DNA of 64,000 nt from Mimachlamys varia. Lineage: Eukaryota > Mollusca > Bivalvia > Pectinida > Pectinidae. The position numbers and the translations under genes were made by a program. The notes beneath the pieces are model-generated. The model worked only from the letters and a program-made list of their open reading frames with translations, ran no database searches and was not told where the DNA came from. The stretch lies in assembly GCA_947623455.1 (NCBI GenBank), contig OX392527.1, forward strand, positions 14,070,001-14,134,000. Reading direction: 5' to 3'. This document shows, piece by piece, positions 11,885 through 61,225 of the stretch (the first letter of the stretch is position 1; every line of letters starts with the position of its first letter).

Positions 11885-11979
11885 CTGAGAAATGAATTAA
11901 AAACAGTTATTTAAAATAAGCAATGTTTGCTTTCAATTTGTATTTCAATCATTAAGTTTAACTTAAAATTGTTTATTAC

Positions 11980-30991: not shown

Positions 30992-31104
30992 GATGTGCTT
31001 GTTTTGCTGTATGCCCCTTGGTGTGGCTTCTGTGCAGGGTTTGCTCATCTGTATATTAATCTAGCAAAGTATTTCAAAACTGCACAGAACCTGATATTTG
31101 CAAG
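30992..31104 (+). CDS. TXNDC11: TXNDC11-like exon j, WCGFC redox site
   Basis: Acceptor TTTTCCCACAG, donor GTAATA. The exon reads DVLVLLYAPWCGFC (CxxC at 31022-31033), then an amphipathic helix and LIFA. This is the beta1-alpha1 region of a thioredoxin fold with both catalytic cysteines present, so this domain should be redox-competent, unlike the upstream thioredoxin-like units. The final two bases form an arginine codon with exon k. Confidence 0.93.
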
Positions 31105-33342: not shown

Positions 33343-33423
33343 GATCAATGCTGATACGAATGATTTACCTTGGGAATACACAGTCAGTAGCTATCCAACT
33401 CTCCTCTTCTTCCCTGCCCATAG
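33343..33423 (+). CDS. TXNDC11: TXNDC11-like exon k, cis-Pro loop and founder of the 57-bp minisatellite
   Basis: The acceptor ends ATCTTTCCAG; donor GTAAGT. The exon reads RINADTNDLPWEY and then SSYPTLLFFPAH plus two bases. The proline at 33395-33397 is the cis-proline facing the CxxC. The last 42 bp are pyrimidine-rich and end CCCTGCCCATAG|GTAAGT, so the end of this exon itself looks like a 3' splice site abutting a donor. Eleven more copies follow. The next exon, expected to finish the thioredoxin fold, was not found by eye in the remaining 30.5 kb. Confidence 0.9.
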
Positions 33424-34063
33424 GTAAGTATAGAGTACAATCAGGAGTTATCCAACTTTCCTCTTCTTCCCTGCCCATAGGTAAGTATAGAGTACAATCA
33501 GGAGTTATCCAACTTTCCTCTTCTTCCCTGCCCATAGGTAAGTATAGAGTACAGTCAGTAGCTATCCAACTCTCCTCTTCTTCCCTGCCCATAGGTAAGT
33601 ATAGAGTGCAGTCAGTAGCTATCCAACTCTCCTCTTCTTCCCTGCCCATTGGTAAGTACAGAGTACAGTCAGGAGCTATCCACCTCTCCTCTTCTTCCCT
33701 GCCCATTGGTAAGTATAGGAGTACACAGTCAGTAGTTATCCAACTCTCCTCTTCTTCCCTGCCCATTGGTAAGTATAGAGTACAGTCAGGAGCTATCCAA
33801 CTTTCCTCTTCTTCCCTGCCCATTGGTAAGTATAGAGTACAATCAGGAGCTATCCAACTCTCCTCTTCTTCCCTGCCCATAGGTAAGTATAGAGTACAGT
33901 CAGGAGCTATCCAACTTTCCTCTTCTTCCCCGCCCATAGGTAAGTATAGAGTACAGTCAGTAGCTATCCAACTCTCCTCTTCTTCCCTGCCCATAGGTAA
34001 GTATAGAGTACAATCAGTAGCTATCCAACTCTCCTCTTCTTCCCTGCCCATAGGTAAGTATAG
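33424..34063 (+). repeat. 57-bp minisatellite of exon-k end plus splice donor, 11 extra copies
   Basis: Each unit is GTAAGTATAGAGTAC (intron start) plus a 42-bp copy of the exon k end (AGTCAGTAGCTATCCAAC to CCCTGCCCATAG). Each copy keeps a pyrimidine-rich tract, an AG, and immediately GTAAGT. Units vary at TAGCT/GAGCT/GAGTT, CTCTCC/CTTTCC and CATAG/CATTG. The unit is a multiple of three and open in both strands, but in the gene's frame every donor read-through gives a stop at once (CATAGGTAA), so it is non-coding. Confidence 0.97.
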
Positions 34064-35841
34064 GTAGTTGTGCACAGATATTTTAATTTCAGATTTCAAC
34101 CTTGTCCTAAGGAAGTTTCGGCCCTTTATGGAAAATTATTCTAGGGGAGTTTCAGTCCTTTATGGAAAATTAAAGAGCCATAATATCCTTAATGAGTTCC
34201 CGTTTCCGTAAGTTGACCCCTAGGTCAAGGTTAAATGATGTTTAAACTTCCTCCATCTGCAGAGGATGTGAGTTATTCTATTGATTGCATGAATGAACTT
34301 AACCCACTTGAAAGGTGACATTTTATAAAATGTGTATACACAAATGGTCTAGGATGGTGATATTTGGCTTGTTGCACAATAAAGGGCTATAAAGTAACCA
34401 AACTTGTGACCTCTTTTCTAAACTTTCAGAGTAGCAGGTGCCGATTTTGGAAAATTATTTAAACAGGTTCTTTTGATTGATTTATAGTCTGGTGAGTGAT
34501 GCAGGCCTATTGGGCATCTTGCATGAATTGATGTACAAGGTAGCTGTGCATTTGTGCTGATTTTATCTAGAATTTTCAAATTAGGGATATCGCCTGTTTG
34601 AGATTTAGTCAGTCTAACGGTAAACAAGTATTAATAGTATGAAATTTAACTCACATATGGAATTAGTTTTAAAATCTATCTCTTATGTGTGATGATTAAG
34701 CTTTGATTCAAACTCTGTATGTGTAAGTTTTAAAATATAACTCATGTATTTGATTACTTTTAAAATCAAATTCTATGTGTATGGATGGTTCGATTTATGG
34801 TATTGCTATATTGTCAGCATATAATTGGGTCATATTAACCTAAAAAGGTGTGTGCTGCCTTGTTAACTTGTGGTTGTGTTTAGAAATAATCCTGAGGCTG
34901 TAAAAAAAGGTCTTAGCTTCCTTCATGACTCAATAATAGTTCTTACAGGTTTGAAGTGATAAAACTAAACTAGAACAATTTGGATGCCCTTCCTTCATTG
35001 CTAACACCTGTAGTTATATATACAGAGCAGTTCACAAATGGAATATTTTAAGTATTGAAGATGTTTTGATATTCAAAGCTACCAGAGAGAATTGGCCTTT
35101 TTTTTTTAATTCTTGCCAGATAGATTGAATGTGGGGGTGTGATGAAAATGGTTATAAAATAATATTGTTCATATAATTTCTATACCAATATGACTACTGC
35201 ACTGAGTCCTTGTTGTTTGCTTGATCACCAAACAGCAGTACTTCTAATTCTAAGCGTCATTTGAATGCATGCTGTCAGTATATCACTGTGCTCTGATGAG
35301 TGCCAGCCAATGTTTCCGTGTCTAGGCACTTCTGACCAATCAGTGCATAGATAATTAGATTAGTAGGTCAAAAGTCGTGACATTTTGTTTGAATCTGCGA
35401 TGTGTTATTACTCATTGTGTATTTGTCTGTAGGGTGCACAAGCATTTGAAGAATTTAATTAATTTTGCTGGTTGATTTCTCTTGAGAGAAGTCGTTAAAC
35501 TGAGACAGTGGTGATATAATGAATAATACTGTTGTCTTTTCTTCGTTTGTTTCTCTCTTGTAGAGATAAAAATAATGTCAGATTTGTATTCCTAATTGCT
35601 AATTTGTTAAAACAAGAATGATAAATAATTATTATGTTACAGTAAAACTTGTGTTTGAACGAGATTGTTATGATGTAAGGAAGATGAAAATTTATTTTTG
35701 TATTCAAAATAGTCATGGGAATTAAATTGATCAAAACAGAAAATTGAAATTTATTTAATTATTTTGTAAGGGAGAAGTACTCTTGATACCTGGCTCTTTT
35801 TATTATCATGACTTCATGCTTGTTTCTGTTCATTATTTCAT
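34064..35841. other. Intron, start of the >30-kb last intron
   Basis: AT-rich and mostly unique. A short doubled segment (TTTATGGAAAATTA at about 34127 and 34159) and a GACCCCTAGGTCAAGGTTAAA block resemble decayed dispersed repeats. No exon in phase was found. Confidence 0.5.
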
Positions 35842-36602
35842 CTTGATATCAGTGTTCAGAAAGGCCACCATCTTGTTATCTGAGCTCAGAAAGGTCACCA
35901 TCTTGTTATCTGAGCTCAGAAAGGTCACCATCTTGTTATCAGTGCTTAGAAAGGTCACCATCTTGATATCAGTGTTCAGAAAGGCCACCATCTTGTTATC
36001 AGTGCTTAGAAAGGTCACCATCTTGATATCAGTGTTCAGAAAGGCCACCATCTTGTTATCTGAGCTCAGAAAGGTCACCATCTTGTTATCTGAGCTCAGA
36101 AAGGTCACCATCTTGTTATCAGTGCTTAGAAAGGTCACCATCTTGATATCAGTGTTCAGAAAGGCCACCATCTTGTTATCAGTGCTTAGAAAGGTCACCA
36201 TCTTGATATCAGTGTTCAGAAAGGCCACCATCTTGATATCAGTGTTCAGAAAGGCCACCATCTTGTTATCAGTGCTTAGAAAGGCCACCATCTTGATATC
36301 AGTGCTTAGAAAGGTCACCATCTTGGTATCAGTACTCAGAAAGGCCACCATCTTGTTATCTGAGCTCAGAAAGGTCACCATCTTCATATCAGTGTTCAGA
36401 AAGGCCACCATCTTGTTATCAGTGCTTAGAAAGGCCACCATCTTGATATCAGTGTTCAGAAAGGCCATCATCTTGATATCAGTACTCAGAAAGGCCACCA
36501 TCTTGATATCAGTGTTCAGAAAGGCCACCATCTTGATATCAGTGTTCAGAAAGACCACCATCTTGGTATCAGTACTCAGAAAGGCCACCATCTTCATATC
36601 AT
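35842..36602. repeat. 30-bp minisatellite with 180-bp higher order, about 25 copies
   Basis: The unit is AGTG(T/C)T(C/T)AGAAAGG followed by (C/T)CACCATCTTG(A/T)TATC. Three subtypes are ordered in a six-unit cycle: 35881-36060 and 36061-36240 are the same series apart from one base near the end. The array is open on both strands because 30 is a multiple of three. Confidence 0.97.
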
Positions 36603-37275
36603 TACCACTAGTGGTATATAACATATATTTATCCAACAGTCATCACGTTTATACAATGATCTGAGAGTGGAATAACTGAGGGTATTGTGGTAGAGATATA
36701 TTTATACCTTTTTGAAATACACCTGTATGCTGAAATAGGAAGCACATATAATGTTAAACCCTATAAAGCATTATAAGTTGGAGTCATTACCACGGTAACA
36801 ATAGAGCACCGAGTTTTGTCATTTTATTTCTGTATGTCAACTTCAGTGGGTGATCACTCAAATGTGTCCATGACGATAAGGCATACAAACGTCACATGGT
36901 ACTTAAGAACTAGTAATATAGGATCCCAACAGGACCAAGGTCACAAGGTCATGAAGTCCCCTTTGACCTCTACAAATCTGCATTGATGGCTTCTCTGATG
37001 AATCTGTCATATATTTAAGGAAATTTTAGCGGCGATTGATCACCGCTGTTTATTTGAATGAGAAGTTGGGCCTTGTTCTAGGTTAAATTACTGGCCTGGG
37101 ACCCAATATTAGGCCAGATAAATTGTACTGTCATAACTGATGGTTTGGTACACAGATGCCATGGGGCACACAGCTATAGGTTATTCTCCTGACTCTCGTC
37201 TTCCTCCAGTCAGCCTCCACAGGGTGGTCGGAGGCTCGTCACGAGATGTAACATAACAGGCCTTATTCATCAATA
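36603..37275. other. Intron spacer
   Basis: Unique sequence; nothing recognised. Confidence 0.5.
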
Positions 37276-37775
37276 GTCATGTGCCAGTACACTTCGATAT
37301 TCTATTTCTTTAAGTATTGTGTAGCCAGTACACTTCGGTATTCTATTTCTATAAATGTTGTGTAGCCAGTACACTTCGGTATTCTATTTCTATAAATGTT
37401 GTGTAGCCAGTACACTTCGGTATTCTATTTCTATAAACGTTGCATAGCCAGTACACTTCGGTATTCTATTTCTATAAATGTTGCATAGCCAGTACACTTC
37501 GGTATTCTATTTCTATAAATGTTGTGTAGCCAGTACACTTCGGTATTCTATTTCTATAAATGTTGTGTAGCCAGTACACTTCGGTATTCTATTTCTATAA
37601 ATGTTGTGTAGCCAGTACACTTCGGTATTCTATTTCTATAAACGTTGCATAGCCAGTACACTTCGGTATTCTATTTCTATAAACGTTGCATAGCCAGTAC
37701 ACTTCGGTATTCTATTTCTATAAATGTTGCATAGCCAGTACACTTAGATATTCTATTTCTATAAATGTTGTGTAG
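37276..37775. repeat. 41-bp minisatellite, about 12 copies
   Basis: The unit contains AGCCAGTACACTTCGGTATT and CTATTTCTATAAATGTTGTG. Subtypes TGTTGTGT and CGTTGCAT alternate in runs. Edge units are more diverged (CTTCGATATT, CTTAGATATT), the usual pattern of a homogenised array core. Confidence 0.96.
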
Positions 37776-38863
37776 CCACTAGTACACTTGTGTAGGTAGG
37801 TAGTTGACGATATTTGAAAAAAATATCCCTTGTGAATTGCTTCAAAAAGAAGATCTTTCAACAATTCTTAGTATTCAGCTGATCAGTTGGTATATTATAA
37901 TTATAGTTGTTTGGCTGCAAATGACAACTTAACACGAGTGTATTGTTTATTAAACTATTGGTTATATTACTTAAAACATCACATAACGTGCACAGCAGTG
38001 TTTTAAGTAGTGGTGACAGAAATAGAGTGAGTCTGCCAGAAGAAACCTTAGAAAGTAGAAAGCCAAGCTGTAAGTGAGTCTCGTATGCTTATTTTGTTTT
38101 ATGTCTTTCATAAGTCCTTTATTGACTTCCCATCTGCTACATGTGTCCATTTATACGCTCAGTTGTGTGAAAACTTGGTGTATCATTTAGATATTATGTA
38201 GACATTTAAATATTAAAATGGTTATAATGATCGCAAACTAAAAGGCAAATCTTGATAACATGACGATGATCAGCTCCCCATATATATATATGGTTAGTTA
38301 AGATGAGCATCTTTATTAACTTAGCTAATTCTGATTTATCAACGATTTATTAAGTAACTTTAATAACGAGGAAATCCCTCTGTATCCATCAACAGATCTG
38401 TGTTATACCTAGGAAATGACTGCCTGTCAAACAAAATAAAACTGTAACTCATAACTTACACTCAAACTTACACGAAAGCTTTTACTGATATGAACATTAC
38501 ATCAAAGCACACAGTGTTTGTTGTAATAATTATATGACAGATTATATTATCAAGTGTTTTTGCCTGTTTTATATGCTTGTGCATGTGGTAATTACAATTT
38601 TGAGTCTTAACAAGCTTGATGGACAATATACATATCACATCAGTGTGAATGGCATCTATCTATAGATATACCCACAATTAGGTTCTGTATGTGAGCTATA
38701 TTTACCCAGATGTAATTGGGTCCAAAGTTGTATACCAAGGTGATGCCAACTGTCCTTCACTTGCCTAATTTTGCTTCAAAATTGGTATGCAATGCGATAA
38801 TATTAGGGTCAGTTTTGAGAAAACTAACGTTTGTTTTCTGTGCCTGCTGATTAAATCAATCAA
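37776..38863. other. Intron spacer
   Basis: AT-rich; a TA microsatellite at about 38280. No exon or element recognised. Confidence 0.5.
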
Positions 38864-39690
38864 GAGTTCTAGAACTAAACTTAGTAGTCAGTGTGTGCCA
38901 TCTAGTTTAGTTTAAGGTTCTGGAATTTAATCTTTGTTTTCAGGAGTTCTAGAACTAAACTTTGTTGTCAGTGTGTGCCCTCTAGTTAAGTTTAAGGTTC
39001 TGGAATTTAATATTTGTTTTCAGGAGTTCTAGAACTGAACTTTGTTGTCAGTGTGTGCCCTCTAGTTTAGTTTAAGGTTCTGGAATTTAATATTTGTTTT
39101 CAGGAGTTCTAGAACTAAACTTTGTTGTCAGTGTGTGCCCTCTAGTTTAGTTTAAGGTTCTGGAATTTAATATTTGTTTTCAGGAGTTCTAGAACTAAAC
39201 TTTGTTGTCAGTGTGTGCCCTCTAGTTTAGTTTAAGGTTCTGGAATTTAATATTTGTTTTCAGAAGTTCTAGAACTGAACTTTGTTGTCAGTGTGTGCCA
39301 TCTAGTTTAGTTTAAGGTTCTGGAATTTAATATTTGTTTTCAGGAGTTCTAGAACTGAACTTTGTTGTCAGTGTGTGCCCTCTAGTTAAGTTTAAGGTTC
39401 TGGAATTTAATATTTGTTTTCAGGAGTTCTAGAACTAAACTTAGTAGTCAGTGTGTGCCATCTAGTTTAGTTTAAGGTTCTGGAATTTAATATTTGTTTT
39501 CAGGAGTTCTAGAACTAAACTTTGTTGTCAGTGTGTGCCCTCTAGTTAAGTTTAAGGTTCTGGAATTTAATCTTTGTTTTCAGGAGTTCTAGAACTGAAC
39601 TTTGTTGTCAGTGTGTGCCCTCTAGTTAAGTTTAAGGTTCTGGAATTTAATCTTCGTTTTCAGGAGTTCTAGAACTGAAGCCTTGTTTTC
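38864..39690. repeat. 80-bp tandem repeat, about 10 copies, with acceptor-like and TTCnnGAA motifs
   Basis: The unit contains AGTTCTAGAACTAAAC, TTTGTTGTCAGTGTGTGCC, TTTAAGGTTCTGGAATTTAA and TATTTGTTTTCAGG. Spacing is exactly 80 bp (39023, 39103, 39183 and so on). Each unit has a TTTGTTTTCAG that resembles a 3' splice site and two TTCnnGAA palindromes. Divergence is low apart from AACTAAAC/AACTGAAC and TTTAGTT/TTAAGTT. Confidence 0.95.
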
Positions 39691-42600
39691 TGTGCCTGCT
39701 AGATGTGAGTATTTGAAGTGTAAGCTTAAGTTTCAGTGTGTCCGCTGGTTATAAGTAAGAGTTAGGGAACTTTGCTTGGTACACAGTCTGTATTTCACCT
39801 TGATTTTGTTCTACAGCAGCAGCCAGACAGGTGAAAGTTTAAATCTGTACAGTTGTTTTTTGTAAATGACACCTACAATTTGAAGTAGGGAGAATGACTC
39901 TACGTATGATGTGTTTGGAAACAAGAAATACAATATCAGATTAGTATCAAGAATACATAAAATGTCCTTGATACATTGTTGTTGGGCCTTGACGGAGCCA
40001 GGCAGACATCCTGTGTTACTTTAACAATGATCTGTATTAGAGAGGACACACAGTAAATTACGGAGACCATACACTAAAGACGCCGAGTCAAAATAGATAA
40101 ATCACATCAGTGTAGTGCTGTACACCAACCGTGGTGGAAGTTAGCGTAATCTGGTGCCATCCACTGGCTCAGCATTTATCACAGGCTTTAGTACGTTATT
40201 CTTCTGGTAATTCAATAAAGAGATGTGATTGTGTCTATATATGGCATGCTCTGATTCAGTTAACAGCTCGTTGTAACATTAATTTGTTGTAGTGTAAGCG
40301 TGTAGAGCTTTGTCACATCATATAACACTCATCTTAGCTCCACTCAAAATGGCTGCTCAAGCACAGCAAAGACTTTACCTACTCCAAACCAATAATAGAG
40401 CTGGAGCTTAATTCTCGCCATTGGTCAAAAGGGAAGGCTTCACTACACTGAAAAAGTGAGTGACAGGGTACGTAATAAACCCATAGCAAATCAGTGGACA
40501 GTAACTGATCATATGACCAATCACAGGGCTGGGATTCTTAAATAGCAGGGCTGAGTGAGCAACAGCCAGTTATAAACAATCACAGGGCAGAAATAGCCAG
40601 TCATAACCAATCACAATGCAGAAATAGCCAGTTATAACCAATCAAAGGGCAGTAACAGCTACTGTTATAACCAATCACAGGGCTTAATCATGATCAGTTA
40701 ATTATAGTTTATCACAGGGCAGTGCAATGTAACAGCCAACTAAAGCCAATCACATGCAAAAACAGTCAAAGGTCAAGGTCGTTGTTACTATGAAGGACTA
40801 ACAACCAAATGAAGGTTTCCTTTTGTTAACTTGAGTGATGACCTGTCAAGCTCAACTTTCATAATTATTATTATGTTGTTTACTGACTGAAAGTTGTTGC
40901 TATGGATTGCTTCTCAGATTTGAAGGTCAAACATCAGTCACAGCTGTTACTATAAATAGTACTGATGACTAAACAAGGGTTTCCATGTGATTACTTGAGT
41001 TCCTTTGGGCCTATCATCCTCAAACTTCATTATATGGTGCTTCCTTCCTGAAAGTTCCTGAATTGGATTGCTTTTCAGATTTGAAGGTCAAAGTTCAAGG
41101 TTAATGTTACTAAAGATAGAACTGATGTCCTAACAAAAGGTTTTCAAGGGACAAAATGAGTTCCTTTGGGCCTCTATTATTCTTGTTTATTTTTAAAATA
41201 TATATCTTAATCATTTCTTAATTGAACACTGTATCTGTCTCATCATAATTTTCTTCTGTTTCACCATACAGGCGAAACATCCTTGTCTGTGGAATACTTG
41301 TTTCAAATCTCAATTGATCAGGACTGGACACATTCATGGATTATTTGACCTTCTCACAATAACAGAGGTTCCTGAGAGGTCAAAGGTTATGAGCATTCAT
41401 TCCTCTCGCCCTTAGGACCCTCTGAAAATTCCATGTTGGAAACACACAGTATAATGATCAAGTGTTTAATGATATTATTTATTTCCCTTGGCTATTGTCC
41501 TGTTTGACTTTATCCGGTGATCATTGGTACCGACCTGTCATTTCTATCTGTGATGTTGTGGATGCATGTGTGCATTACCTAGAAGTAAGGAAATGGTCTG
41601 TGTGGAAGCTGTTTGAGCCTTGTTTATGTGTTAGTTCTGTGGGTTGGTACAGAACCGGAGTAAATGAGATTTTAACTACTAACGGTATAATTGGAAAATT
41701 AAATGATTTAGACTCACTGTTCTTAACATGTGCATTCTTTTGATAAACTGTACAATTGAAACTGTAGTTTCCTGCAGATAATGGGAGACTAGTGATCACC
41801 ATTTCTTTATGTAGAAAGATTTTGATGCCAAATGAAAGGAAAGTCAAAACTCTCAATTTTAAGTGTCCTATTTATGCATCTCCGACGCAAAATTCTAAAA
41901 GGGCAAGAGAACAATCAGATGCTATCTAATTAAACGAGGGGTATGATTACACCAAGTAATGGCTTGTTTCCACTGGGTTCAACCAAACAGCACATAATTT
42001 AAACCAGCCATTGGTACACTGGGGAATAATAACTAGTGTTTCTAGGCTGATATTTTACAAAAATTATATTCCCGCCAGAAAATAGAAATGTGACTGCAAG
42101 TACAAAAGTGCAAATTTTGTAGGAAACAATATACCTATATCTTGTTTATCAACTCCTTTTAAATTGCTGACCTGAGGTACCATTAAATTTGAGTGGTAGG
42201 ATCATGACATACTGTAAACGTATTATATATTTGTGTGTAAACTTATTTTAGCGCTTGTAGCATTTAAAGTAATGCTCCAAGTTATGATTGCACTAGCTGG
42301 AGATTTTATATGCTGCTTATATAGTATTTATCATGGATGTGCCAATAGGCCTAACTAACAAGGCACTAAAAGATTGCCCCAAATTAAGTACGTTTACAGT
42401 AAACGGACACCAAACCAACAGTAGCTGCATACAATGCGAAAGACGAAGAAGAACTTTTGTTTAATTAGTAGTTTAGTTAACAAAAACATTTATTTTGAAG
42501 AAGCCTTTATGTCAGTTGTATTTTACATGCTGAACCCCCGTGAAGGAGCTTGTTCAAATAGGGCGTATAGTCGCGCAGCTAGGACAAAATTCACTTTGCT

Positions 42601-44118
42601 TTACACATGATTAATTTGAAGTTATCAGAAAACCCAGCTAGTGGAGCAGATGCCAGAGGTTTTCAGTTGAAGGTCTACTCTAGGTATGAAATTTTCAGTA
42701 GCTTATATATTTGTCAATAGCATTCTAAGTATTTGACCCTCAGGGGTCCATCTTATTTTCTTTTTAGTTAAGAGATATTGTAATGCCTGGCACCTGCTTG
42801 TCTCTCTGTCAATCCATCCCACCTCCATTTCCGCACACGTTCTCATGAGTGGATCAAACTCGAACTTCATACAGGACTTCCTTACTATAAGGGCTTGCTG
42901 GAGATTGCTTTTCAAGTAAAAAGTTCAAAGTCAAGTTCCCAAAATGTGTAACATACTTCTCAGGATGGTTTCTCCTAACCCAAGGTTGTAACATAACCTT
43001 GACCCAAGGTTACATCCCCAAGGTCAAGGTCATAGGGCATTAACATCAGATTAGTTTACTACAATGTGTATATGTCCAGTCCATTGTTTTGAACCCTGTT
43101 ATACTACACAGGAGTTTTGCTCCCGACCCAGTTAGTATTGCTGATGTTATAGATGTGTGAATCACTCTTTTCAGAATATCTAATTAATTTTTACTTACCT
43201 GAGTCAGTCTACTTGTGGAATTCATACAAAATGTTTCTATCCTTATTCCACATTGCTTATTATCTGTGATTGTCATTTCGAGAAGTAACTTTCTCCCTTA
43301 AGGCTTGTGCAGGTTGTATTTACTGAATCAATACACAACTCTGAATGCATTAACACAGAATACTGTGATTTCTAACAGATTGCCAAGATGGATTTTATTT
43401 ATCATTTACTCAAATAGATTCATGAATGTTTGAAAGCTTAAAATGATGTAGAAATATATTTATTCAGACAGTCTATTCGTCTTCAGTTCCTGATTTACTT
43501 CACTTAGGTTATCTTGAAGTGGAGGATTGTGGGTAAATATTACATCTTGAAGTGAAGCATTGTGGGTAAATATTTCATGTTAAAGTGAAGTATTGTGGGT
43601 AAATATATCATCTTGTAGTGAAATATTGTGGGTATGTAGTAGGAATGACCTCTCAGTCTTTACAGACTTTTACCCAGGTTCTAGTCTGGGGTTCCATGTG
43701 TAACAGTAATACTTAACTTCCACAGGTAAATAGATCATCTTGAAGTGAAGTATTGTTGGTAAATATTTCATCTTGTAGTGAAGTACAATGTATTGGGGTT
43801 ATACAATTTTTGGATTTGTTTGGATGTACATGTATATATAAGATATATATATGCTATCTCTGGTTTTTTTGGTCTGGTCTTGATTCCCATGGCAATATGA
43901 TTTTATTTCTAACTCTACGGTCACTTAAAGGCCAGACAATCTACCACCATTACTGTTACCATAGACACATGAACATGTCATATGAAATAGCCAATAATCT
44001 CTGTCCAAATGTCACAGTTATCATTCTTATTTCAGCCATGAAATTGGAAATCAGTTTTATGTGTTATGATATGTGTTGAAATGTGTGAACAGAAATACTT
44101 CATATATGTATAGCAGTT
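39691..44118. other. Intron, 4.4 kb with only decayed repeats
   Basis: Recognisable within it: imperfect ~35-bp repeats with AACCAATCACAGGGC (about 40510-40760); a diverged ~180-bp repeat with GATTGCTT.TCAGATTTGAAG and AAGGTCAA (about 40760-41180); a GGTCAAGGTCATAGGGC block (43020); and ~33-bp imperfect repeats GAAGTGAAGTATTGTGGGTA (about 43510-43770). A strong-looking acceptor at 41271 (TTTCACCATACAG) has no in-phase TXNDC11-like continuation. No gene called. Confidence 0.55.
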
Positions 44119-47100
44119 TTGTGTCTGTGTATGATAGTCGTGAGATAGGAATACATACATTGTAGGTGTGGTGCGAGGTTAACAGTGATATTTTGTGTCT
44201 GTATGATAGTCGTGAGATAGGAATACATATATTGTAGGTGTGGTGCGAGGTTAACAGTGATATTTTGTGTCTGTGTATGATAGTCGTGAGATAGGAATAC
44301 ATACATTGTAGGTGTGGTGCGAGGTTAACAGTGATATTTTGTGTCTGTGTATGATAGTCGTGAGATAGGAATACATACATTGTAGGTGTGGTGCGAGGTT
44401 AACAGTGATATTTTGTGTCTGTGTATGATAGTCGTGAGATAGGAATACATACATTGTAGGTGTGGTGCGAGGTTAACAGTGATATTTTGTGTCTGTATGA
44501 TAGTCGTGAGATAGGAATACATACATTGTAGGTGTGGTGCGAGGTTAACAGTGATATTTTGTGTCTGTGTATGATAGTCGTGAGATAGGAATACATACAT
44601 TGTAGGTGTGGTGTAAGGTTAACAGTGATATTTTGTGTCTGTGTATGATAGTCGTGAGATAGGAATACATACATTGTAGGTGTGGTGCGAGGTTAACAGT
44701 GATATTTTGTGTCTGTGTATGATAGTCGTGAGATAGAAATACATACATTGTAGGTGTGGTGCAAGGTTAACAGTGATATTTTGTGTCTGTGTATGATAGT
44801 CGTGAGATAGGAATACATACATTGTAGGTGTGGTGCGAGGTTAACTGATATTTTGTGTCTGTGTATGATAGTCGTGAGATAGGAATACATACATTGTAGG
44901 TGTGGTGCGAGGTTAACAGTGATATTTTGTGTCTGTGTATGATAGTCGTGAGATAGAAATACATACATTGTAGGTGTGGTGCGAGGTTAACAGTGATATT
45001 TTGTGTCTGTGTATGATAGTCGTGAGATAGGAATACATACATTGTAGGTGTGGTGCGAGGTTAACAGTGATATTTTGTGTCTGTGTATGATAGTCGTGAG
45101 ATAGGAATACATACATTGTAGGTGTGGTGCGAGGTTAACAGTGATATTTTGTGTCTGTGTATGATAGTCGTGAGATAGGAATACATACATTGTAGGTGTG
45201 GTGTAAGGTTAACAGTGATATTTTGTGTCTGTGTATGATAGTCGTGAGATAGGAATACATTGTAGGTGTGGTGCGAGGTTAACAGTGATATTTTGTGTCT
45301 GTGTATGATAGTCGTGAGATAGGAATACATACATTGTAGGTGTGGTGCGAGGTTAACAGTGATATTTTGTGTCTGTGTATGATAGTCGTGAGATAGGAAT
45401 ACATTGTAGGTGTGGTGCGAGGTTAACAGTGATATTTTGTGTCTGTGTATGATAGTCGTGAGATAGGAATACATACATTGTAGGTGTGGTGCGAGGTTAA
45501 CAGTGATATTTTGTGTCTGTGTATGATAGTCGTGAGATAGGAATACATTGTAGGTGTGGTGCGAGGTTAACAGTGATATTTTGTGTCTGTGTATGATAGT
45601 CGTGAGATAGGAATACATACATTGTAGGTGTGGTGCGAGGTTAACACTGATATTTTGTGTCTGTGTATGATAGTCGTGAGATAGGAATACATACATTGTA
45701 GGTGTGGTGCGAGGTTAACACTGATATTTTGTGTCTGTGTATGATAGTCATGAGATAGGAATACATACATTGTAGGTGTGGTGCGAGGTTAACAGTGATA
45801 TTTTGTGTCTGTGTATGATAGTCATGAGATAGGAATACATACATTGTAGGTGTGGTGTAAGGTTAACAGTGATATTTTGTGTCTGTGTATGATAGTCGTG
45901 AGATACATACATTGTAGGTGTGGTGCGAGGTTAACAGTGATATTTTGTGTCTGTGTATGATAGTCGTGAGATAGGAATACATTGTAGGTGTGGTGCGAGG
46001 TTAACAGTGATATTTTGTGTCTGTGTATGATAGTCGTGAGATAGGAATACATACGTTGTAGGTGTGGTGCGAGGTTAACAGTGATATTTTGTGTCTGTGT
46101 ATGATAGTCGTGAGATAGGAATACATACATTGTAGATGTGGTGCGAGGTTAACAGTGATATTTTGTGTCTGTATGATAGTCGTGAGATAGGAATACATAC
46201 ATTGTAGGTGTGGTGCGAGGTTAACAGTGATATTTTGTGTCTGTGTATGATAGTTAACAGTGATATTTTGTGTCTGTGTATGATAGTCGTGAGACAGGAA
46301 TACATACATTGTAGGTGTGGTGCGAGGTTAACAGTGATATTTTGTGTCTGTGTATGATAGTCATGAGATAGGAATACATACATTGTAGGTGTGGTGCGAG
46401 GTTAACAGTGATATTTTGTGTCTGTGTATGATAGTCGTGAGATAGGAATACATACATTGTAGGTGTGGTGTAAGGTTAACAGTGATATTTTGTGTCTGTG
46501 TATGATAGTCATGAGATAGGAATACATACATTGTAGGTGTGGTGTAAGGTTAACAGTGATATTTTGTGTCTGTGTATGATAGTCGTGAGATAGGAATACA
46601 TACATTGTAGGTGTGGTGTAAGGTTAACAGTGATATTTTGTGTCTGTGTATGATAGTCGTGAGATAGGAATACATACATTGTAGGTGTGGTGCGAGGTTA
46701 ACAGTGATATTTTGTGTCTGTGTATGATAGTCATGAGATAGGAATACATACATTGTAGGTGTGGTGCGAGGTTAACAGTGATATTTTGTGGTATGTGTAT
46801 GATAGTCGTGAGATAGGAATACATACATTGTAGGTGTGGTGCGAGGTTAACAGTGATATTTTGTGTCTGTGTATGATAGTTAACAGTGATATTTTGTGTC
46901 TGTGTAAGATAGTCATGAGATAGGAATACATACATTGTAGGTGTGGTGCGAGGTTAACAGTGATATTTTGTGTCTGTGTATGATAGTCGTGAGATAGGAA
47001 TACATACATTGTAGGTGTGGTGCGAGGTTAACAGTGATATTTTGTGGTATGTGTATGATAGTCGTGAGATAGGAATACATACATTGTAGGTGTGGTGCGA

Positions 47101-50100
47101 GGTTAACAGTGATATTTTGTGTCTGTGTATGATAGTTAACAGTGATATTTTGTGTCTGTGTAAGATAGTCATGAGATAGGAATACATACATTGTAGGTGT
47201 GGTGCGAGGTTAACAGTGATATTTTGTGTCTGTGTAAGATAGTCATGAGATAGGAATACATACATTGTAGGTGTGGTGCGAGGTTAACAGTGATATTTTG
47301 TGTCTGTGTATGATAGTCGTGAGATAGGAATACATACATTGTAGGTGTGGTGTAAGGTTAACAGTGATATTTTGTGGTATGTGTATGATAGTCGTGAGAT
47401 AGGAATACATACATTGTAGGTGTGGTGCGAGGTTAACAGTGATATTTTGTGTCTGTGTATGATAGTCGTGAGATAGGAATACATACATTGTAGGTGTGGT
47501 GCGAGGTTAACAGTGATATTTTGTGGTATGTGTATGATAGTCGTGAGATAGGAATACATACATTGTAGGTGTGGTGCGAGGTTAACAGTGATATTTTGTG
47601 TCTGTGTATGATAGTCGTGAGATAGGAATACATACATTGTAGGTGTGGTGCGAGGTTAACAGTGATATTTTGTGTCTGTGTATGATAGTCGTGAGATAGG
47701 AATACATACATTGTAGGTGTGGTGTAAGGTTAACAGTGATATTTTGTGTCTGTGTATGATAGTCGTGAGATAGGAATACATACATTGTAGGTGTGGTGCG
47801 AGGTTAACAGTGATATTTTGTGTCTGTGTATGATAGTCGTGAGATAGGAATACATACATTGTAGGTGGGGTGCGAGGTTAACACTGATATTTTGTGTCTG
47901 TGTATGATAGTCGTGAGATAGGAATACATACATTGTAGGTGTGGTGCGAGGTTAACAGTGATATTTTGTGTCTGTGTATGATAGTGGTGAGATAGGAATA
48001 CATACATTGTAGGTGTGGTGCCAGGTTAACAGTGATATTTTGTGTCTGTGTATGATAGTCGTGAGATAGGAATACATACATTGTAGGTGTGGTGCGAGGT
48101 TAACAGTGATATTTTGTGTCTGTGTATGATAGTCGTGAGATAGGAATACATACATTGTAGGTGTGGTGCAAGGTTAACAGTGATATTTTGTGTCTGTGTA
48201 TGATAGTCGTGAGATAGGAATACATACATTGTAGGTGTGGTGCAAGGTTAACAGTGATATTTTGTGTCTGTGTATGATAGTCGTGAGATAGGAATACATA
48301 CATTGTAGGTGTGGTGCGAGGTTAACAGTGATATTTTGTGTCTGTGTATGATAGTCGTGAGATAGGAATACATACATTGTAGGTGTGGTGCAAGGTTAAC
48401 AGTGATATTTTGTGTCTGTGTATGATAGTCGTGAGATAGGAATACATACATTGTAGGTGTGGTGCGAGGTTAACAGTGATATTTTGTGTCTGTGTATGAT
48501 AGTCGTGAGATAGAAATACATACATTGTAGGTGTGGTGCGAGGTTAACAGTGATATTTTGTGTCTGTGTATGATAGTCGTGAGATAGGAATACATACATT
48601 GTAGGTGTGGTGCGAGGTTAACAGTGATATTTTGTGTCTGTGTATGATAGTCGTGAGATAGGAATACATACATTGTAGGTGTGGTGCGAGGTTAACACTG
48701 ATATTTTGTGTCTGTGTATGATAGTCGTGAGATAGGAATACATACATTGTAGGTGTGGTGCGAGGTTAACAGTGATATTTTGTGTCTGTGTATGATAGTC
48801 GTGAGATAGGAATACATACATTGTAGGTGTGGTGCAAGGTTAACAGTGATATTTTGTGTCTGTGTATGATAGTCGTGAGATAGGAATTGGTAGGTGTGGT
48901 GCGAGGTTAACAGTGATATTTTGTGTCTGTGTATGATAGTCATGAGATAGGAATACATATATTGTAGGTGTGGTGCGAGGTTAACAGTGATATTTTGTGT
49001 CTGTATGATAGTCGTGAGATAGGAATACATACATTGTAGGTGTGGTGCGAGGTTAACAGTGATATTTTGTGTCTGTGTATGATAGTCGTGAGATAGGAAT
49101 ACATACATTGTAGGTGTGGTGCGAGGTTAACAGTGATATTTTGTGTCTGTGTATGATAGTCGTGAGATAGGAATACATACATTGTAGGTGTGGTGCGAGG
49201 TTAACAGTGATATTTTGTGTCTGTGTATGATAGTCGTGAGATAGGAATACATACATTGTAGGTGTGGTGCGAGGTTAACAGTGATATTTTGTGTCTGTGT
49301 ATGATAGTCGTGAGATAGGAATACATATATTGTAGGTGTGGTGCGAGGTTAACAGTGATATTTTGTGTCTGTGTATGATAGTCGTGAGATAGGAATACAT
49401 TGTAGGTGTGGTGCGAGGTTAACAGTGATATTTTGTGTCTGTGTATGATAGTCGTGAGATAGGAATACATACATTGTAGGTGTGGTGCGAGGTTAACAGT
49501 GATATTTTGTGTCTGTGTATGATAGTGGTGAGATAGGAATACATACATTGTAGGTGTGGTGCGAGGTTAACAGTGATATTTTGTGTCTGTGTATGATAGT
49601 CGTGAGATAGGAATACATACATTGTAGGTGTGGTGCGAGGTTAACAGTGATATTTTGTGGTATGTGTATGATAGTCGTGAGATAGGAATACATACATTGT
49701 AGGTGTGGTGCGAGGTTAACAGTGATATTTTGTGTCTGTGTATGATAGTGGTGAGATAGGAATACATACATTGTAGGTGTGGTGCGAGGTTAACACTGAT
49801 ATTTTGTGTCTGTGTATGATAGTCGTGAGATAGGAATACATACATTGTAGGTGTGGTGCGAGGTTAACAGTGATATTTTGTGTCTGTGTATGATAGTCGT
49901 GAGATAGGAATACATACATTGTAGGTGTGGTGCGAGGTTAACAGTGATATTTTGTGTCTGTGTAAGATAGTCATGAGATAGGAATACATACATTGTAGGT
50001 GTGGTGCGAGGTTAACAGTGATATTTTGTGTCTGTGTATGATAGTCGTGAGATAGGAATACATACATTGTAGGTGTGGTGCGAGGTTAACAGTGATATTT

Positions 50101-53100
50101 TGTGTCTGTGTATGATAGTCGGGAGATAGGAATACATAGTAGGTGTGGTGCAAGGTTAAGTGATATTTTGTGTCTGTGTATGATAGTCGTGAGATAGGAA
50201 TACACACATTGTAGGTGTGGTGCGAGGTTAACAGTGATATTTTGTGTCTGTGTATGATAGTCGTGAGATAGGAATACATATATTGTAGGTGTGGTGCGAG
50301 GTTAACAGTGATATTTTGTGTCTGTGTTATGATAGTCGTGAGATAGGAATACATACATTGTAGGTGTGGTGCGAGGTTAACAGTGATATTTTGTGTCTGT
50401 GTATGATAGTCGTGAGATAGGAATACGTACATTGTAGGTGTGGTGCGAGGTTAACAGTGATATTTTGTGTCTGTGTATGATAGTCGTGAGATAGGAATAC
50501 ATACATTGTAGGTGTGGTGCAAGGTTAACAGTGATATTTTGTGTCTGTGTATGATAGTCGTGAGATAGGAATTGGTAGGTGTGGTGCGAGGTTAACAGTG
50601 ATATTTTGTGTCTGTGTATGATAGTCATGAGATAGGAATACATACATTGTAGGTGTGGTGCGAGGTTAACAGTGATATTTTGTGTCTGTATGATAGTCGT
50701 GAGATAGGAATACATACATTGTAGGTGTGGTGCGAGGTTAACAGTGATATTTTGTGTCTGTGTATGATAGTCGTGAGATAGGAATACAGACATTGTAGGT
50801 GTGGTGCAAGGTTAACAGTGATATTTTGTGTCTGTGTATGATAGTCGTGAGATAGGAATACATACATTGTAGGTGTGGTGCGAGGTTAACAGTGATATTT
50901 TGTGTCTGTGTATGATAGTCGTGAGATAGGAATACATTGTAGGTGTGGTGCGAGGTTAACAGTGATATTTTGTGTCTGTGTATGATAGTCGTGAGATAGG
51001 AATACATACGTTGTAGGTGTGGTGCGAGGTTAACAGTGATATTTTGTGTCTGTGTATGATAGTCGTGAGATAGAAATACATACATTGTAGGTGTGGTGCG
51101 AGGTTAACAGTGATATTTTGTGTCTGTGTATGATAGTCGTGAGATAGGAATACATACATTGTAGGTGTGGTGCGAGGTTAACAGTGATATTTTGTGTCTG
51201 TGTATGATAGTCGTGAGATAGGAATACATACATTGTAGGTGTGGTGCGAGGTTAACAGTGATATTTTGTGTCTGTGTATGATAGTCATGAGATAGGAATA
51301 CATACATTGTAGGTGTGGTGTAAGGTTAACAGTGATATTTTGTGTCTGTGTATGATAGTCGTGAGATACATACATTGTAGGTGTGGTGCGAGGTTAACAG
51401 TGATATTTTGTGTCTGTGTATGATAGTCGTGAGATAGGAATACATTGTAGGTGTGGTGCCAGGTTAACAGTGATATTTTGTGTCTGTGTATGATAGTCGT
51501 GAGATAGGAATACATACATTGTAGGTGTGGTGCGAGGTTAACAGTGATATTTTGTGTCTGTGTATGATAGTCATGAGATAGGAATACATACATTGTAGGT
51601 GTGGTGTAAGGTTAACAGTGATATTTTGTGTCTGTGTATGATAGTCATGAGATAGGAATACATACATTGTAGGTGTGGTGCGAGGTTAACAGTGATATTT
51701 TGTGTCTGTGTATGATAGTCATGAGATAGGAATACATACATTGTAGGTGTGGTGTAAGGTTAACAGTGATATTTTGTGTCTGTGTATGATAGTCGTGAGA
51801 TAGGAATACATACATTGTAGGTGTGGTGCGAGGTTAACAGTGATATTTTGTGTCTGTGTATGATAGTCGTGAGATAGGAATACATACATTGTAGGTGTGG
51901 TGCGAGGTTAACAGTGATATTTTGTGTCTGTGTATGATAGTCATGAGATAGGAATACATACATTGTAGGTGTGGTGTAAGGTTAACTGTGATATTTTGTG
52001 TCTGTGTATGATAGTCGTGAGACAGGAATACATACATTGTAGGTGTGGTGCGAGGTTAACAGTGATATTTTGTGTCTGTGTATGATAGTCGTGAGATAGG
52101 AATACATACATTGTAGGTGTGGTGCGAGGTTAACAGTGATATTTTGTGTCTGTGTATGATAGTCGTGAGATAGGAATACATACATTGTAGGTGTGGTGCG
52201 AGGTTAACAGTGATATTTTGTGTCTGTATGATAGTCGTGAGATAGGAATACATACATTGTAGGTGTGGTGCGAGGTTAACAGTGATATTTTGTGTCTGTG
52301 TATGATAGTCATGAGATAGGAATACATACATTGTAGGTGTGGTGCGAGGTTAACAGTGATATTTTGTGTCTGTGTATGATAGTCATGAGATAGGAATACA
52401 TACATTGTAGGTGTGGTGCGAGGTTAACAGTGATATTTTGTGTTTGTGTATGATAGTCGTGAGATAGGAATACATTGTAGGTGTGGTGCGAGGTTAACAG
52501 TGATATTTTGTGTCTGTGTATGATAGTGGTGAGATAGGAATACATACATTGTAGGTGTGGTGCGAGGTTAACAGTGATATTTTGTGTCTGTGTATGATAG
52601 TCGTGAGATAGGAATACATACATTGTAGGTGTGGTGCGAGGTTAACAGTGATATTTTGTGTCTGTGTATGATAGTCGTGAGATAGGAATACATACATTGT
52701 AGGTGTGGTGCGAGGTTAACAGTGATATTTTGTGTCTGTGTATGATAGTCGTGAGATAGGAATACATACATTGTAGGTGTGGTGCGAGGTTAACAGTGAT
52801 ATTTTGTGTCTGTGTATGATAGTCGTGAGATAGGAATACATACATTGTAGGTGTGGTGCGAGGTTAACAGTGATATTTTGTGTCTGTGTATGATAGTGGT
52901 GAGATAGGAATACATACATTGTAGGTGTGGTGCGAGGTTAACAGTGATATTTTGTGTCTGTGTATGATAGTCATGAGATAGGAATACATACATTGTAGGT
53001 GTGGTGCGAGGTTAACAGTGATATTTTGTGGTATGTGTATGATAGTCGTGAGATAGGAATACATACGTTGTAGGTGTGGTGCGAGGTTAACAGTGATATT

Positions 53101-56100
53101 TTGTGTCTGTGTATGATAGTCGTGAGATAGAAATACATACATTGTAGGTGTGGTGCGAGGTTAACAGTGATATTTTGTGTCTGTGTATGATAGTCGTGAG
53201 ATAGGAATACATACATTGTAGGTGTGGTGCGAGGTTAACAGTGATATTTTGTGTCTGTGTATGATAGTCGTGAGATAGGAATACATACATTGTAGGTGTG
53301 GTGCGAGGTTAACAGTGATATTTTGTGTCTGTGTATGATAGTCATGAGATAGGAATACATACATTGTAGGTGTGGTGTAAGGTTAACAGTGATATTTTGT
53401 GTCTGTGTATGATAGTCGTGAGATACATACATTGTAGGTGTGGTGCGAGGTTAACAGTGATATTTTGTGTCTGTGTATGATAGTCGTGAGATAGGAATAC
53501 ATTGTAGGTGTGGTGCGAGGTTAACAGTGATATTTTGTGTCTGTGTATGATAGTCGTGAGATAGGAATACATACATTGTAGGTGTGGTGCGAGGTTAACA
53601 GTGATATTTTGTGTCTGTGTATGATAGTCATGAGATAGGAATACATACATTGTAGGTGTGGTGTAAGGTTAACAGTGATATTTTGTGTCTGTGTATGATA
53701 GTCATGAGATAGGAATACATACATTGTAGGTGTGGTGCGAGGTTAACAGTGATATTTTGTGTCTGTGTATGATAGTCATGAGATAGGAATACATACATTG
53801 TAGGTGTGGTGTAAGGTTAACAGTGATATTTTGTGTCTGTGTATGATAGTCGTGAGATAGGAATACATACATTGTAGGTGTGGTGCGAGGTTAACAGTGA
53901 TATTTTGTGTCTGTGTATGATAGTCATGAGATAGGAATACATACATTGTAGGTGTGGTGTAAGGTTAACTGTGATATTTTGTGTCTGTGTATGATAGTCG
54001 TGAGACAGGAATACATACATTGTAGGTGTGGTGCGAGGTTAACAGTGATATTTTGTGTCTGTGTATGATAGTCGTGAGATAGGAATACATACATTGTAGG
54101 TGTGGTGCGAGGTTAACAGTGATATTTTGTGTCTGTGTATGATAGTCGTGAGATAGGAATACATACATTGTAGGTGTGGTGCGAGGTTAACAGTGATATT
54201 TTGTGTCTGTATGATAGTCGTGAGATAGGAATACATACATTGTAGGTGTGGTGCGAGGTTAACAGTGATATTTTGTGTCTGTGTATGATAGTCATGAGAT
54301 AGGAATACATACATTGTAGGTGTGGTGCGAGGTTAACAGTGATATTTTGTGTCTGTGTATGATAGTCATGAGATAGGAATACATACATTGTAGGTGTGGT
54401 GCGAGGTTAACAGTGATATTTTGTGTTTGTGTATGATAGTCGTGAGATAGGAATACATTGTAGGTGTGGTGCGAGGTTAACAGTGATATTTTGTGTCTGT
54501 GTATGATAGTGGTGAGATAGGAATACATACATTGTAGGTGTGGTGCGAGGTTAACAGTGATATTTTGTGTCTGTGTATGATAGTCGTGAGATAGGAATAC
54601 ATACATTGTAGGTGTGGTGCGAGGTTAACAGTGATATTTTGTGTCTGTGTATGATAGTCGTGAGATAGGAATACATACATTGTAGGTGTGGTGCGAGGTT
54701 AACAGTGATATTTTGTGTCTGTGTATGATAGTCGTGAGATAGGAATACATACATTGTAGGTGTGGTGCGAGGTTAACAGTGATATTTTGTGTCTGTGTAT
54801 GATAGTCGTGAGATAGGAATACATACATTGTAGGTGTGGTGCGAGGTTAACAGTGATATTTTGTGTCTGTGTATGATAGTGGTGAGATAGGAATACATAC
54901 ATTGTAGGTGTGGTGCGAGGTTAACAGTGATATTTTGTGTCTGTGTATGATAGTCGTGAGATAGGAATACATACATTGTAGGTGTGGTGCGAGGTTAACA
55001 GTGATATTTTGTGGTATGTGTATGATAGTCGTGAGATAGGAATACATTGTAGGTGTGGTGCGAGGTTAACAGTGATATTTTGTGTCTGTGTATGAAAGTC
55101 GTGAGATAGGAATACATACATTGTAGGTGTGGTGCGAGGTTAACAGTGATATTTTGTGTTTGTGTATGATAGTCGTGAGATAGGAATACACACATTGTAG
55201 GTGTGGTGTAAGGTTAACAGTGATATTTTGTGTTTGTGTATGATAGTCGTGAGATAGGAATACATACATTGTAGGTGTGGTGCGAGGTTAACAGTGATAT
55301 TTTGTGTCTGTGTATGATAGTCGTGAGATAGGAATTGGTAGGTGTGGTGCGAGGTTAACAGTGATATTTTGTGTCTGTGTATGATAGTCGTGAGATAGGA
55401 ATACATACATTGTAGGTGTGGTGTAAGGTTAACAGTGATATTTTGTGTCTGTGTATGATAGTCGTGAGACAGGAATACATACATTGTAGGTGTGGTGCGA
55501 GGTTAACAGTGATATTTTGTGTCTGTGTATGATAGTCGTGAGATAGGAATACATACATTGTAGGTGTGGTGTAAGGTTAACAGTGATATTTTGTGTCTGT
55601 GTATGATAGTCGTGAGATAGGAATACATACATTGTAGGTGTGGTGCGAGGTTAACAGTGATATTTTGTGTCTGTGTATGATAGTCGTGAGATAGGAATAC
55701 ATACATTGTAGGTGTGGTGCGAGGTTAACAGTGATATTTTGTGTCTGTGTATGATAGTCGTGAGATAGGAATACATACATTGTAGGTGTGGTGCGAGGTT
55801 AACAGTGATATTTTGTGTCTGTGTATGATAGTCGTGAGATAGGAATACATACATTGTAGGTGTGGTGCGAGGTTAACAGTGATATTTTGTGTCTGTGTAT
55901 GATAGTCGTGAGATAGGAATACATACATTGTAGGTGTGGTGCGAGGTTAACAGTGATATTTTGTGTCTGTGTATGATAGTCGTGAGATAGGAATACATAC
56001 ATTGTAGGTGTGGTGCGAGGTTAACAGTGATATTTTGTGTCTGTGTATGATAGTCATGAGATAGGAATACATACATTGTAGGTGTGGTGCGAGGTTAACA

Positions 56101-58726: not shown

Positions 58727-59835
58727 AAGACCTTAAAGTTACCTACATTTTGAATAATAATTTCTACAAGAAATATTTTAGATTCTTTTCTTATGTATTA
58801 CCTTTTGTCAAGAAAAGTTCTCATAGAGTCAGTGGCACTAGGTAATTGATAAACATAGAGCCGTGGACAGCGACACATGTGTATTGATAATAAAGAGATC
58901 ACTACTTGTACAGATGTTGGTCACAGATTTTCTAATTACTCGTAACTTGTGTGAGGCTTACACAAAGCAAAAGATTGAAATAATTGTTTTAAAGTTTTGA
59001 CAGAAACATAAATATCAAGATAAGAGAATCTGAAGTTCTTTGGTAATTATACCCGTAAGACACTTTTGATGGCGTAAAAATGACAGTTTGCGATGATATA
59101 TGTGCAGTATTTAGCAAGGAAGAAATTATTGTTATTATTTTCCTTGAAATCTGCATTATGACTAAGAATGCAGACGTTGACTTTTCAAGATCATCATGAT
59201 ATTATCCAGACTCGTAGTTTTACTATTCATTTATGGAGATAATCATTTTGAAGAATGTATGTGGTACAGCAGAATATAGGGTATTTATTAGGCTTGATGC
59301 AAGAACGGCAGTAATATTGACCTAATCTATCTCTCCTCGGATTATAGCTGTCAGCTAGTCACTGACAACTAGGTGATGTTGATGCAGCATTTCTTTCCAC
59401 AATTTCCTCTAGGTAAATTGCTACCTTTGACAGATTCTCTCTGCAGAAACATCCATAAACAGACCTAATAGTTGTTATGTTCATGATGTCACTTTGCAAT
59501 CTTTAACAATCCATTAATTCAGATAAGATTTTTTTCAAAATATATCTTGTGACAATATTTTTCATTTCTTAGAACTGGTATAACTTGTTTTATTTCAAAC
59601 ATAATTACAGTGAAAAATAAATCCTGTGAATTAGAGTTTTATTTAAATCTACAAATTACACTTTGCAATATGAACAAAAGGCTGACGCATGATCATTAAC
59701 AATTTCTGCCTTTTTTAAGATTTATAAAACATATTTAGAAATTTTGGTTCTATGATCTTTCAGTGAGCTTCAGTCAGTCAACTTCAGGATTGTGGGTTAG
59801 GTAAACATTGTAGACAGTGACTTCAATAGCTCACT
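58727..59835. other. Intron spacer right of the 74-bp array
   Basis: AT-rich unique sequence; no element or in-phase exon recognised. Confidence 0.5.
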
Positions 59836-60036
59836 AGATACTGACTTTAGGACATAAACACTGGAGTTTGATACTGACTTTAGGACATAAACACTGGAGT
59901 TTGATACTGACTTTAGGACATAAACACTGGAGTTTGATACTGACTTTAGGACATAAACACTGGAGTTTGATACTGACTTTAGGACATAAACACTGGAGTT
60001 TGATACTGACTTTAGGACATAAACACTGGAGTTTGG
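59836..60036. repeat. 33-bp minisatellite, 6 copies
   Basis: The unit contains GATACTGACTTTAGGACATA and AACACTGGAGTTT. Copies are essentially identical, so the expansion is recent. Confidence 0.97.
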
Positions 60037-60839: not shown

Positions 60840-61225
60840 TGGAAAAAATATACCAGGATCATTGAGGAATATATACTAGAAACCTTGGGCAATATATACC
60901 AGAACCATTGAGCAATATACATTTACCAGAACCATTAAGGAATATATACTAGAACCATTGAGCAATATATACCAGAACCATTGAGCAATATACATTTACC
61001 AGAACCATTAAGGAATATATACTAGAACCGTTGAGCAATATATACCAGAACCATTGAGCAATATATACCAGAACCATTGAGCAATATATACCAGGACCAT
61101 TGAGGAATATATACCAGAACCATTGAGCAATATAATAATACCAGAACTATTGAGCTATATAATAATACCAGAATAATTGAGCAATATAATACAATACCAG
61201 AACCATTGAGCAATATAATAATACC
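60840..61225. repeat. 23-bp minisatellite, left part
   Basis: The unit is ACCATTGAGCAATATATACC plus AGA, with variants (GAGGAATAT, ACTAGA, AATAATACC). It continues beyond an interrupting block at 61691. Confidence 0.93.

Follow-up and report, generated by a model that had tools for sequence, protein, structure and literature searches.

A putative tandem dual-specific splice-site minisatellite seeded by an exon-intron junction of a TXNDC11 homolog in Mimachlamys varia

What does a row of near-identical splice junctions do at the start of a very long intron? The question is raised by a 57-bp minisatellite of the bivalve Mimachlamys varia, in which an exon end and its donor are repeated in tandem. 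It lies in a stretch of 64,000 nt (contig OX392527.1, positions 14,070,001 to 14,134,000), here called the window, whose own numbering is used throughout. A first reading of the bare sequence (hereafter the sequence-only reading) took it for the second donor-seeded minisatellite of one gene, with units laid out like the ratchet points of recursive splicing, and left two answers: an accidental tandem ratchet or a set of decoy sites.

Host gene, intron and array layout

Judged by its protein matches, the host gene is a homolog of TXNDC11 (thioredoxin domain-containing protein 11). The best named match, with 40% identity across the full query, was a protein of Tegillarca granosa; Mactra, Patella and Pinctada proteins came next among the named ones, and the fragment P0001 was 65% identical over 54%. 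Three parts of the gene frame the array:

30992..31104, + strand: upstream exon of 113 nt with the CGFC active site (tblastn)
33343..33423, + strand: TXNDC11-homolog exon of 81 nt, phase 2 in and out, coding ...INADTNDLPWEYTVSSYPTLLFFPAH(R) (tblastn with six homologs, Pfam, profile)
34064..64000, + strand: rest of the intron, in which no following TXNDC11 exon was detected (tblastn, profile)

The exon ending at 31104 is real according to tblastn, and its donor is the one that the sequence-only reading had named. Taken together, the two exons matched the Pfam Thioredoxin family with an E value of 1.6e-12, the domain beginning in the former. The acceptor at 33342 obtained the top score among 4178 AGs of the + strand, with an approximate matrix.

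The length of the intron that follows was approached by searching for the next exon. As a control, a profile of exon 33343-33423 built from 53 homologs matched the window at an E value of 2.9e-18. A profile of the 30 residues past the junction (52 homologs), run in six frames over the whole window, gave a best E value of 0.19, at 21237 and hence upstream, although such a profile could miss a very diverged or split exon. Likewise, tblastn with six homologs gave no match with E <1 beyond the array. On these searches the intron after 33423 probably measures at least 30,577 nt, and the figure of at least 30.5 kb proposed earlier holds as a probable one, the next exon not being found in the remaining 30.6 kb of the window.

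TRF placed the minisatellite at 33380-34063 of the + strand, with a period of 57, 11.9 copies and 94% matches. Cutting it at the donors gave 12 units with GTAAGT in all of them, and the array of twelve 57-bp units described from the sequence alone was thus recovered at its claimed place. Its parts are listed below; the slash marks the junction and the positions in brackets are the last exon-like bases, which for unit 1 is 33423.

33380..34063, + strand: 57-bp minisatellite of 12 units, seeded by the exon-intron junction (TRF, unit cut)
33380..33423, + strand: unit 1, the end of the real exon; donor 1 follows at 33424 (unit cut)
33424..33594, + strand: units 2 to 4, junction copies with a polypyrimidine tract and ATAG/GTAAGT (33480, 33537, 33594; unit cut)
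33595..33825, + strand: units 5 to 8, ATTG/GTAAGT, donor kept and acceptor AG lost (33651, 33708, 33768, 33825)
33826..34063, + strand: units 9 to 12, ATAG/GTAAGT (33882, 33939, 33996, 34053), then ATAG and unique intron (unit cut)

Each unit is composed of the final 44 nt of the coding exon and the first ~10 nt of the intron. The spacing is 57 nt with the sole exception of units 6 and 7, which are 60 nt apart; both lengths are multiples of 3, which fits the long open frames found across the array on both strands. The units are no duplicates of a coding exon, as the exon frame reaches a TAA right after unit 1. Selection on GTAAGT was also considered and dropped: the motif is invariant in the twelve units, but so are most unit columns, and nothing follows from it.

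The claim of up to 12 polypyrimidine-AG/GTAAGT sites stood in part. The donor is present in 12 of 12 units, but AG/GTAAGT is kept in only eight (1-4 and 9-12), while units 5-8 read CCCATTG/GTAAGT, with TTG before the donor, and are unusable as AG acceptors. When pyrimidine-rich AG/GTRAGT sites were counted over the window (threshold of at least 12 pyrimidines in 17), the + strand held nine, eight in the array and one at 9144, and the - strand none. Thirty first-order Markov sequences of 64 kb each gave a mean of 0.17 per strand. The eight array sites count as one event because they are copies of one junction. An exact-DNA search for relatives returned 0 matches in viral and prokaryotic collections, a result of little weight.

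Origin of the motif and of the array

Why should the end of an exon resemble a ratchet point? The exon end is indeed pyrimidine-rich right before GTAAGT, as the sequence-only reading had it: exon 33343-33423 ends CCCTGCCCATAG/GTAAGT, and this is the first unit. The pyrimidine tract encodes YPTLLFFPAH, a conserved strand of the thioredoxin fold. Among 20,000 random synonymous encodings, all contained at least 12 pyrimidines in 17 and 8.3% reached the observed 15. We ranked the forced pyrimidine content of the nine residues among all 9-residue windows of their own protein in 53 of 60 homologs and found them in the top 0.8% (median), with a 90th percentile of 4.8% and a worst rank of 7.5%. The motif pattern used for this matched 34 of the 60 homologs at first and 53 after it was widened; the rest were P0001, whose sequence stops short of the motif, and P0055-P0060. 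The junction falls within a conserved Arg codon, and the Arg-Lys residue pair is present in 50 of 53 homologs. Since these codons are mostly pyrimidine whatever the synonymous choice, the tract needs no splicing function as its explanation. The plausible acceptors in eight of the twelve copies likewise go back to the exon end, a pyrimidine-rich coding sequence closed by AG.

The units themselves may preserve traces of how they multiplied. Over the 42 nt of the exon side, units 4 and 11 match the exon copy exactly, and all units differ from it by at most 4 nt. The following joint is distinctive:

33709..33735, + strand: joint of units 6 and 7, read as the oldest duplication joint

The first 11 nt of this joint equal the intron past unit 12 (GTAAGTATAGG), and its end is exon flank with one substitution (GGAGTACACAGTCAG against GGAATACACAGTCAG), GG being common to both parents; the remaining joints are 3 nt shorter. 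If the joint is correctly read as the oldest, a tandem duplication of 60 bp across the exon-intron junction, perhaps at a 2-bp microhomology, would have come first and would later have been shortened to 57, and the duplicated segment would then have expanded into the array. An exchange with the exon at a later stage could also account for what is seen at units 6 and 7. Copying of a six-unit block was discarded: TRF does report a 345-bp period with halves 94.8% identical, but units six apart are no closer to each other (mean of 2.5 mismatches in 42) than neighbours (2.45). The accidental origin named in the sequence-only reading is the best one available, as coding sequence and duplication account for the motif.

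The array is, as had been claimed, the second donor-seeded minisatellite of the gene. The first lies far upstream:

5039..5170, + strand: exon whose donor seeded the 58-bp array (tblastn)
5118..7080, + strand: other junction-seeded array of the same gene, 58 bp, with 27 intact ATG/GTAGGT donors including the real one (TRF)

It was copied from the donor ATG/GTAGGT after 5170, its donors are preceded by no AG, and 58 is not a multiple of 3. Two arrays on 10 donors compare with 0.19 expected (P 0.016), and with all 19 junctions the P value is 0.053; calculated post hoc with a simple Poisson model, the excess of arrays on junctions is only a hint.

Other features of the window were noted along the way. 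Its 24 tandem arrays, a hand merge of 49 TRF rows with several short ones left out, cover 53% of it and include a 74-bp array of ~14.6 kb at 44117-58716. The ratchet-like site at 9144, TTTAGTTTTACAG/GTAAGT, is single and stands ~300 nt into a 21.7-kb intron (8842-30545). The exons flanking that intron mismatch in phase as placed (2 out, 1 needed, worked out by hand), and a short exon was probably missed between them, unless there is a sequence error. A hAT transposase fragment with the C-terminal dimerisation domain is located in an intron at 11323-11910 on the - strand (Pfam, 1e-05). Finally, the donor of exon 423-529 (530-541) reads GTAAGTATAGAG, 12 nt that most array units also have on their intron side; this identity is probably due to chance.

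Site strength, splicing outcomes and known systems

The sequence-only reading had proposed that each unit be scored as a donor and as an acceptor. As donors all twelve units scored well, whereas a plausible acceptor was found in eight and not in units 5-8. Pairing with U1 reached -12.4 kcal/mol for eight units and was weaker in the four TTG units (-10.5 to -11.0), as against -6.6 to -11.5 kcal/mol for nine candidate donors of the gene, eight earlier exons being scored. The array AGs ranked 11-12 of 4178 and seven real acceptors of the gene ranked 1, 3, 8, 9, 20, 23 and 287, the last a weak one; with the 3' splice matrix and U1 sequence used, these ranks are rough, and they do not include the acceptors of exons 423-529 and near 2801-2869. 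The first, partial exon likewise contributed no donor score. AGs at 35563 and 41415 in the same intron equal the array AGs under this matrix, and a high score alone is therefore no mark of a used acceptor. A branch-like CCAAC precedes the junction by ~25 nt in 11 of the 12 units, unit 6 showing a variant form, and no AG intervenes. The idea that RNA structure hides donors was dropped, since the predicted mean unpaired probabilities (0.33-0.37 for donors 1-11, 0.08 for donor 12) were uninformative.

Which products would these sites give? Within the array there are 44 donor-acceptor pairs, 57 to 630 nt apart, whose intron lengths are multiples of 57, plus 3 if the 60-nt spacing is crossed, and all of them leave TAG/GTAAGT or TTG/GTAAGT. 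The shortest of these introns, 57 nt, is very short and near the lower size limit for animals. Joining donor 1 to any later AG unit leaves the exon unchanged with GTAAGT next (7 of 7 units), and such an event would be silent in the mRNA because the exon/GTAAGT junction is exactly rebuilt. Donors 2-12, if joined to the next exon, place an in-frame TAA as the first codon after the exon. The junction reads from 31104 to the array AGs, suggested earlier as a check, would report skipping of the 81-nt exon, in frame. More telling are the junctions from donor 1 to a given AG within the array, which are silent in mRNA and readable from lariats or nascent RNA.

We compared the array with known systems. 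Juxtaposition of a polypyrimidine-AG and GTRAGT, the layout of a Drosophila-type ratchet point, is found in eight units, and in these the ratchet-point layout claimed by the sequence-only reading is borne out. Division of the intron on a kilobase scale is not found. According to Pai 2018 (PMC6110457), recursive segments of flies average 9.1 kb, and in introns with two or three recursive sites the first stands at about 33% or 25% of the length. The array sites are all within 630 nt of donor 1, at most 2.1% of an intron that is probably at least 30,577 nt, and the argument that its size class makes ratchet use likely finds no support. Joseph 2021 (PMC8605326) gives the fly RS-exon ~50 nt and reports that competition of two donors largely decides the outcome in the loci tested, some loci excepted. 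Seven of the eight AG units have a GTAAGT 57 nt on, as an RS-exon would require, and unit 12 is without it. The likeness to flies thus consists of polypyrimidine-AG/GTAAGT with a donor 57 nt downstream, but here the copies are in tandem at the very start of the intron, and the donors corresponding to ratchet and RS-exon are about equal.

The closer relatives are human. Duan 2024 (PMC10809524) describes tandem AGGT arrays in UBC and VCX3A, stochastic splicing of the UBC array into a ladder, an 8.4-fold excess of human introns that are multiples of the surrounding repeat (77 introns), and the idea that expansions are less harmful as they can be spliced out. That idea covers the core of the present case. 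The array shares with UBC and VCX3A an AGGT once per unit, a unit length that is a multiple of 3 and an expansion removable by splicing. AG/GT with plausible donor and acceptor context occurs in eight units, not in units 5-8, and the lengths of the introns formed by the 44 pairs are unit multiples. UBC units, however, are 228-nt coding monomers kept or removed in the mRNA, whereas units 2-12 are intronic, after an in-frame stop, and use of donor 1 would be silent. The minisatellite of IFI6/6-16 supplies many donors and its downstream repeat units are used as donors (Turri 1995). The mollusc array shares the layout of this class, a tandem repeat that spans an exon-intron boundary and supplies a donor in every unit, and Turri 1995 covers the donor-array part of the case. 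IFI6 appears to be a donor array, while eight of the units described here are also acceptor-like.

Two further comparisons concern the junction itself. Hoppe 2023 (PMC10156609) reports distal exonic recursive sites in human exons, with acceptor use at the exon end and exon skipping. They resemble the present exon in a pyrimidine-rich end with YAG/GT and a possible acceptor, and here skipping would be in frame (81 nt), but they are single sites and are not amplified. Ma 2016 (PMC4974935) describes introns gained when an AGGT segment is duplicated in tandem, which provides the new GT and AG ends together. Its starting point, a duplicated AGGT inside an exon, is not what we found: TXNDC11 homology stops at the junction, and the residues expected to follow (Lys...) are missing from the sequence beyond it. 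Here an existing exon-intron junction supplied the AGGT, and no new intron is needed in the mRNA.

The description that best fits the sequence is that of a tandem dual-specific splice-site minisatellite, with human UBC/VCX3A and the IFI6 donor minisatellite as its close counterparts. A literature search on recursive splicing with minisatellites or molluscs, in a limited library and with limited terms, retrieved no paper on this array. In the portions of the compared papers that were consulted we did not find its combination of traits, namely a stop-containing, non-coding array that sits on a live junction where a very long intron begins and whose use would be invisible in mRNA. The array is a real structure of plain accidental origin and of a known kind in a new setting.

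Preferred reading and its rivals

The reading that we prefer, with reasonable though not strong confidence, is that the junction-seeded minisatellite is a tandem dual-specific (AG/GT) splice-site array and a by-product of repeat expansion. The row of splice signals is probably harmless because splicing inside the array can leave the message unchanged. Productive mRNA would come from donor 1, chosen through exon definition together with the strong acceptor at 33342. As long as the true acceptor, at least 30 kb away, awaits transcription, donor 1 could splice to the array AGs, all within 630 nt; each such event would shed whole units, restore exon/GTAAGT and leave no trace in the mRNA. Silence and exon definition might then jointly explain why the expansion is tolerated, and the array would have no role in dividing the long intron.

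A bolder part of this reading, which we put forward tentatively from the arrangement of the sites, is that the repeat may erase itself, donor 1 splicing repeatedly to array AGs, shedding 57-nt units and hiding the copy number from the mRNA. With the transcription rate of 1.5 kb/min that Pai 2018 (PMC6110457) assumed, the rest of the intron takes about 20 min or more, and silent splicing is plausible because donor 1 has the array AGs near during that time. Yet tolerance seems not to need it, given that the 58-bp array of the same gene has 27 donors with no preceding AG. Between equal donors the intron-proximal one often wins, which would favor donor 12 and counts against our preferred reading. 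Moreover, in flies the exon junction complex blocks regenerated splice sites after splicing, and by analogy this would stand in the way of repair after the joining of a late donor to the next exon.

The main rival, doubtful but deserving attention, regards the units as passive decoy donors: the array acceptors would be unused, and downstream donors would occasionally give a decaying, stop-containing mRNA and lower the output. The 11 extra donors with their immediate in-frame TAA agree with it, as do the downstream IFI6 units used as donors, the 58-bp array with donors and no AG before them, and the two AGs elsewhere in the intron whose scores show that a good score need not mean use. Against it stand the eight units whose acceptors score like real ones of the gene, and the UBC AGGT sites, which are used both ways, one at an acceptor score of -0.21.

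It is unlikely that the array is a regulated switch, in which PTB bound to the pyrimidine tracts between donors would favor the first donor and low PTB would give stop-containing mRNA. TCTTC, in RNA the PTB-type motif UCUUC, is found 24 times within the 684 nt of the array, a density of 35 per kb; elsewhere in the window the density is 0.54 per kb. In mammalian Hps1, PTB between two competing donors promotes the upstream one, the downstream one giving NMD substrates. However, the coding sequence already explains the tract, and the upstream donor of Hps1 is the weaker one while donor 1 is as strong as any here.

We consider it very unlikely that the array is a true ratchet selected for stepwise removal of the long intron. 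In spite of the ratchet-like motif and an intron of probably at least 30.6 kb, ~98% of the intron would remain after use of sites so near the donor, coding sequence and duplication explain the motif, and no other pyrimidine-rich AG/GTRAGT lies on the + strand of the intron within the window. We give hardly any credence to a landing pad whose twelve U1 sites shield the start of the intron from premature cleavage and polyadenylation: the twelve matches pair strongly, but U1 protection reaches about 1 kb and twelve sites in 630 nt would cover little of 30 kb. An assembly or copy-number artefact, conceivable where ~53% of the window consists of tandem arrays that are difficult to assemble, is just as improbable in view of the scattered variants among units, which are not all exact copies.

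The locus would offer a natural set of 12 competing donors and eight acceptors, near-identical within each group, heading a very long intron, which makes testable both the choice among equal donors and whether recursive splicing can hide a repeat expansion from the transcript. It suggests a rule: a conserved pyrimidine-rich coding strand ending in AG/GT is a ready-made two-way splice site that duplication can multiply. If self-erasure is true, it would allow a minisatellite to expand at a live splice junction free of cost. With two junction-seeded arrays in one gene, such cases are maybe not rare in minisatellite-rich genomes.
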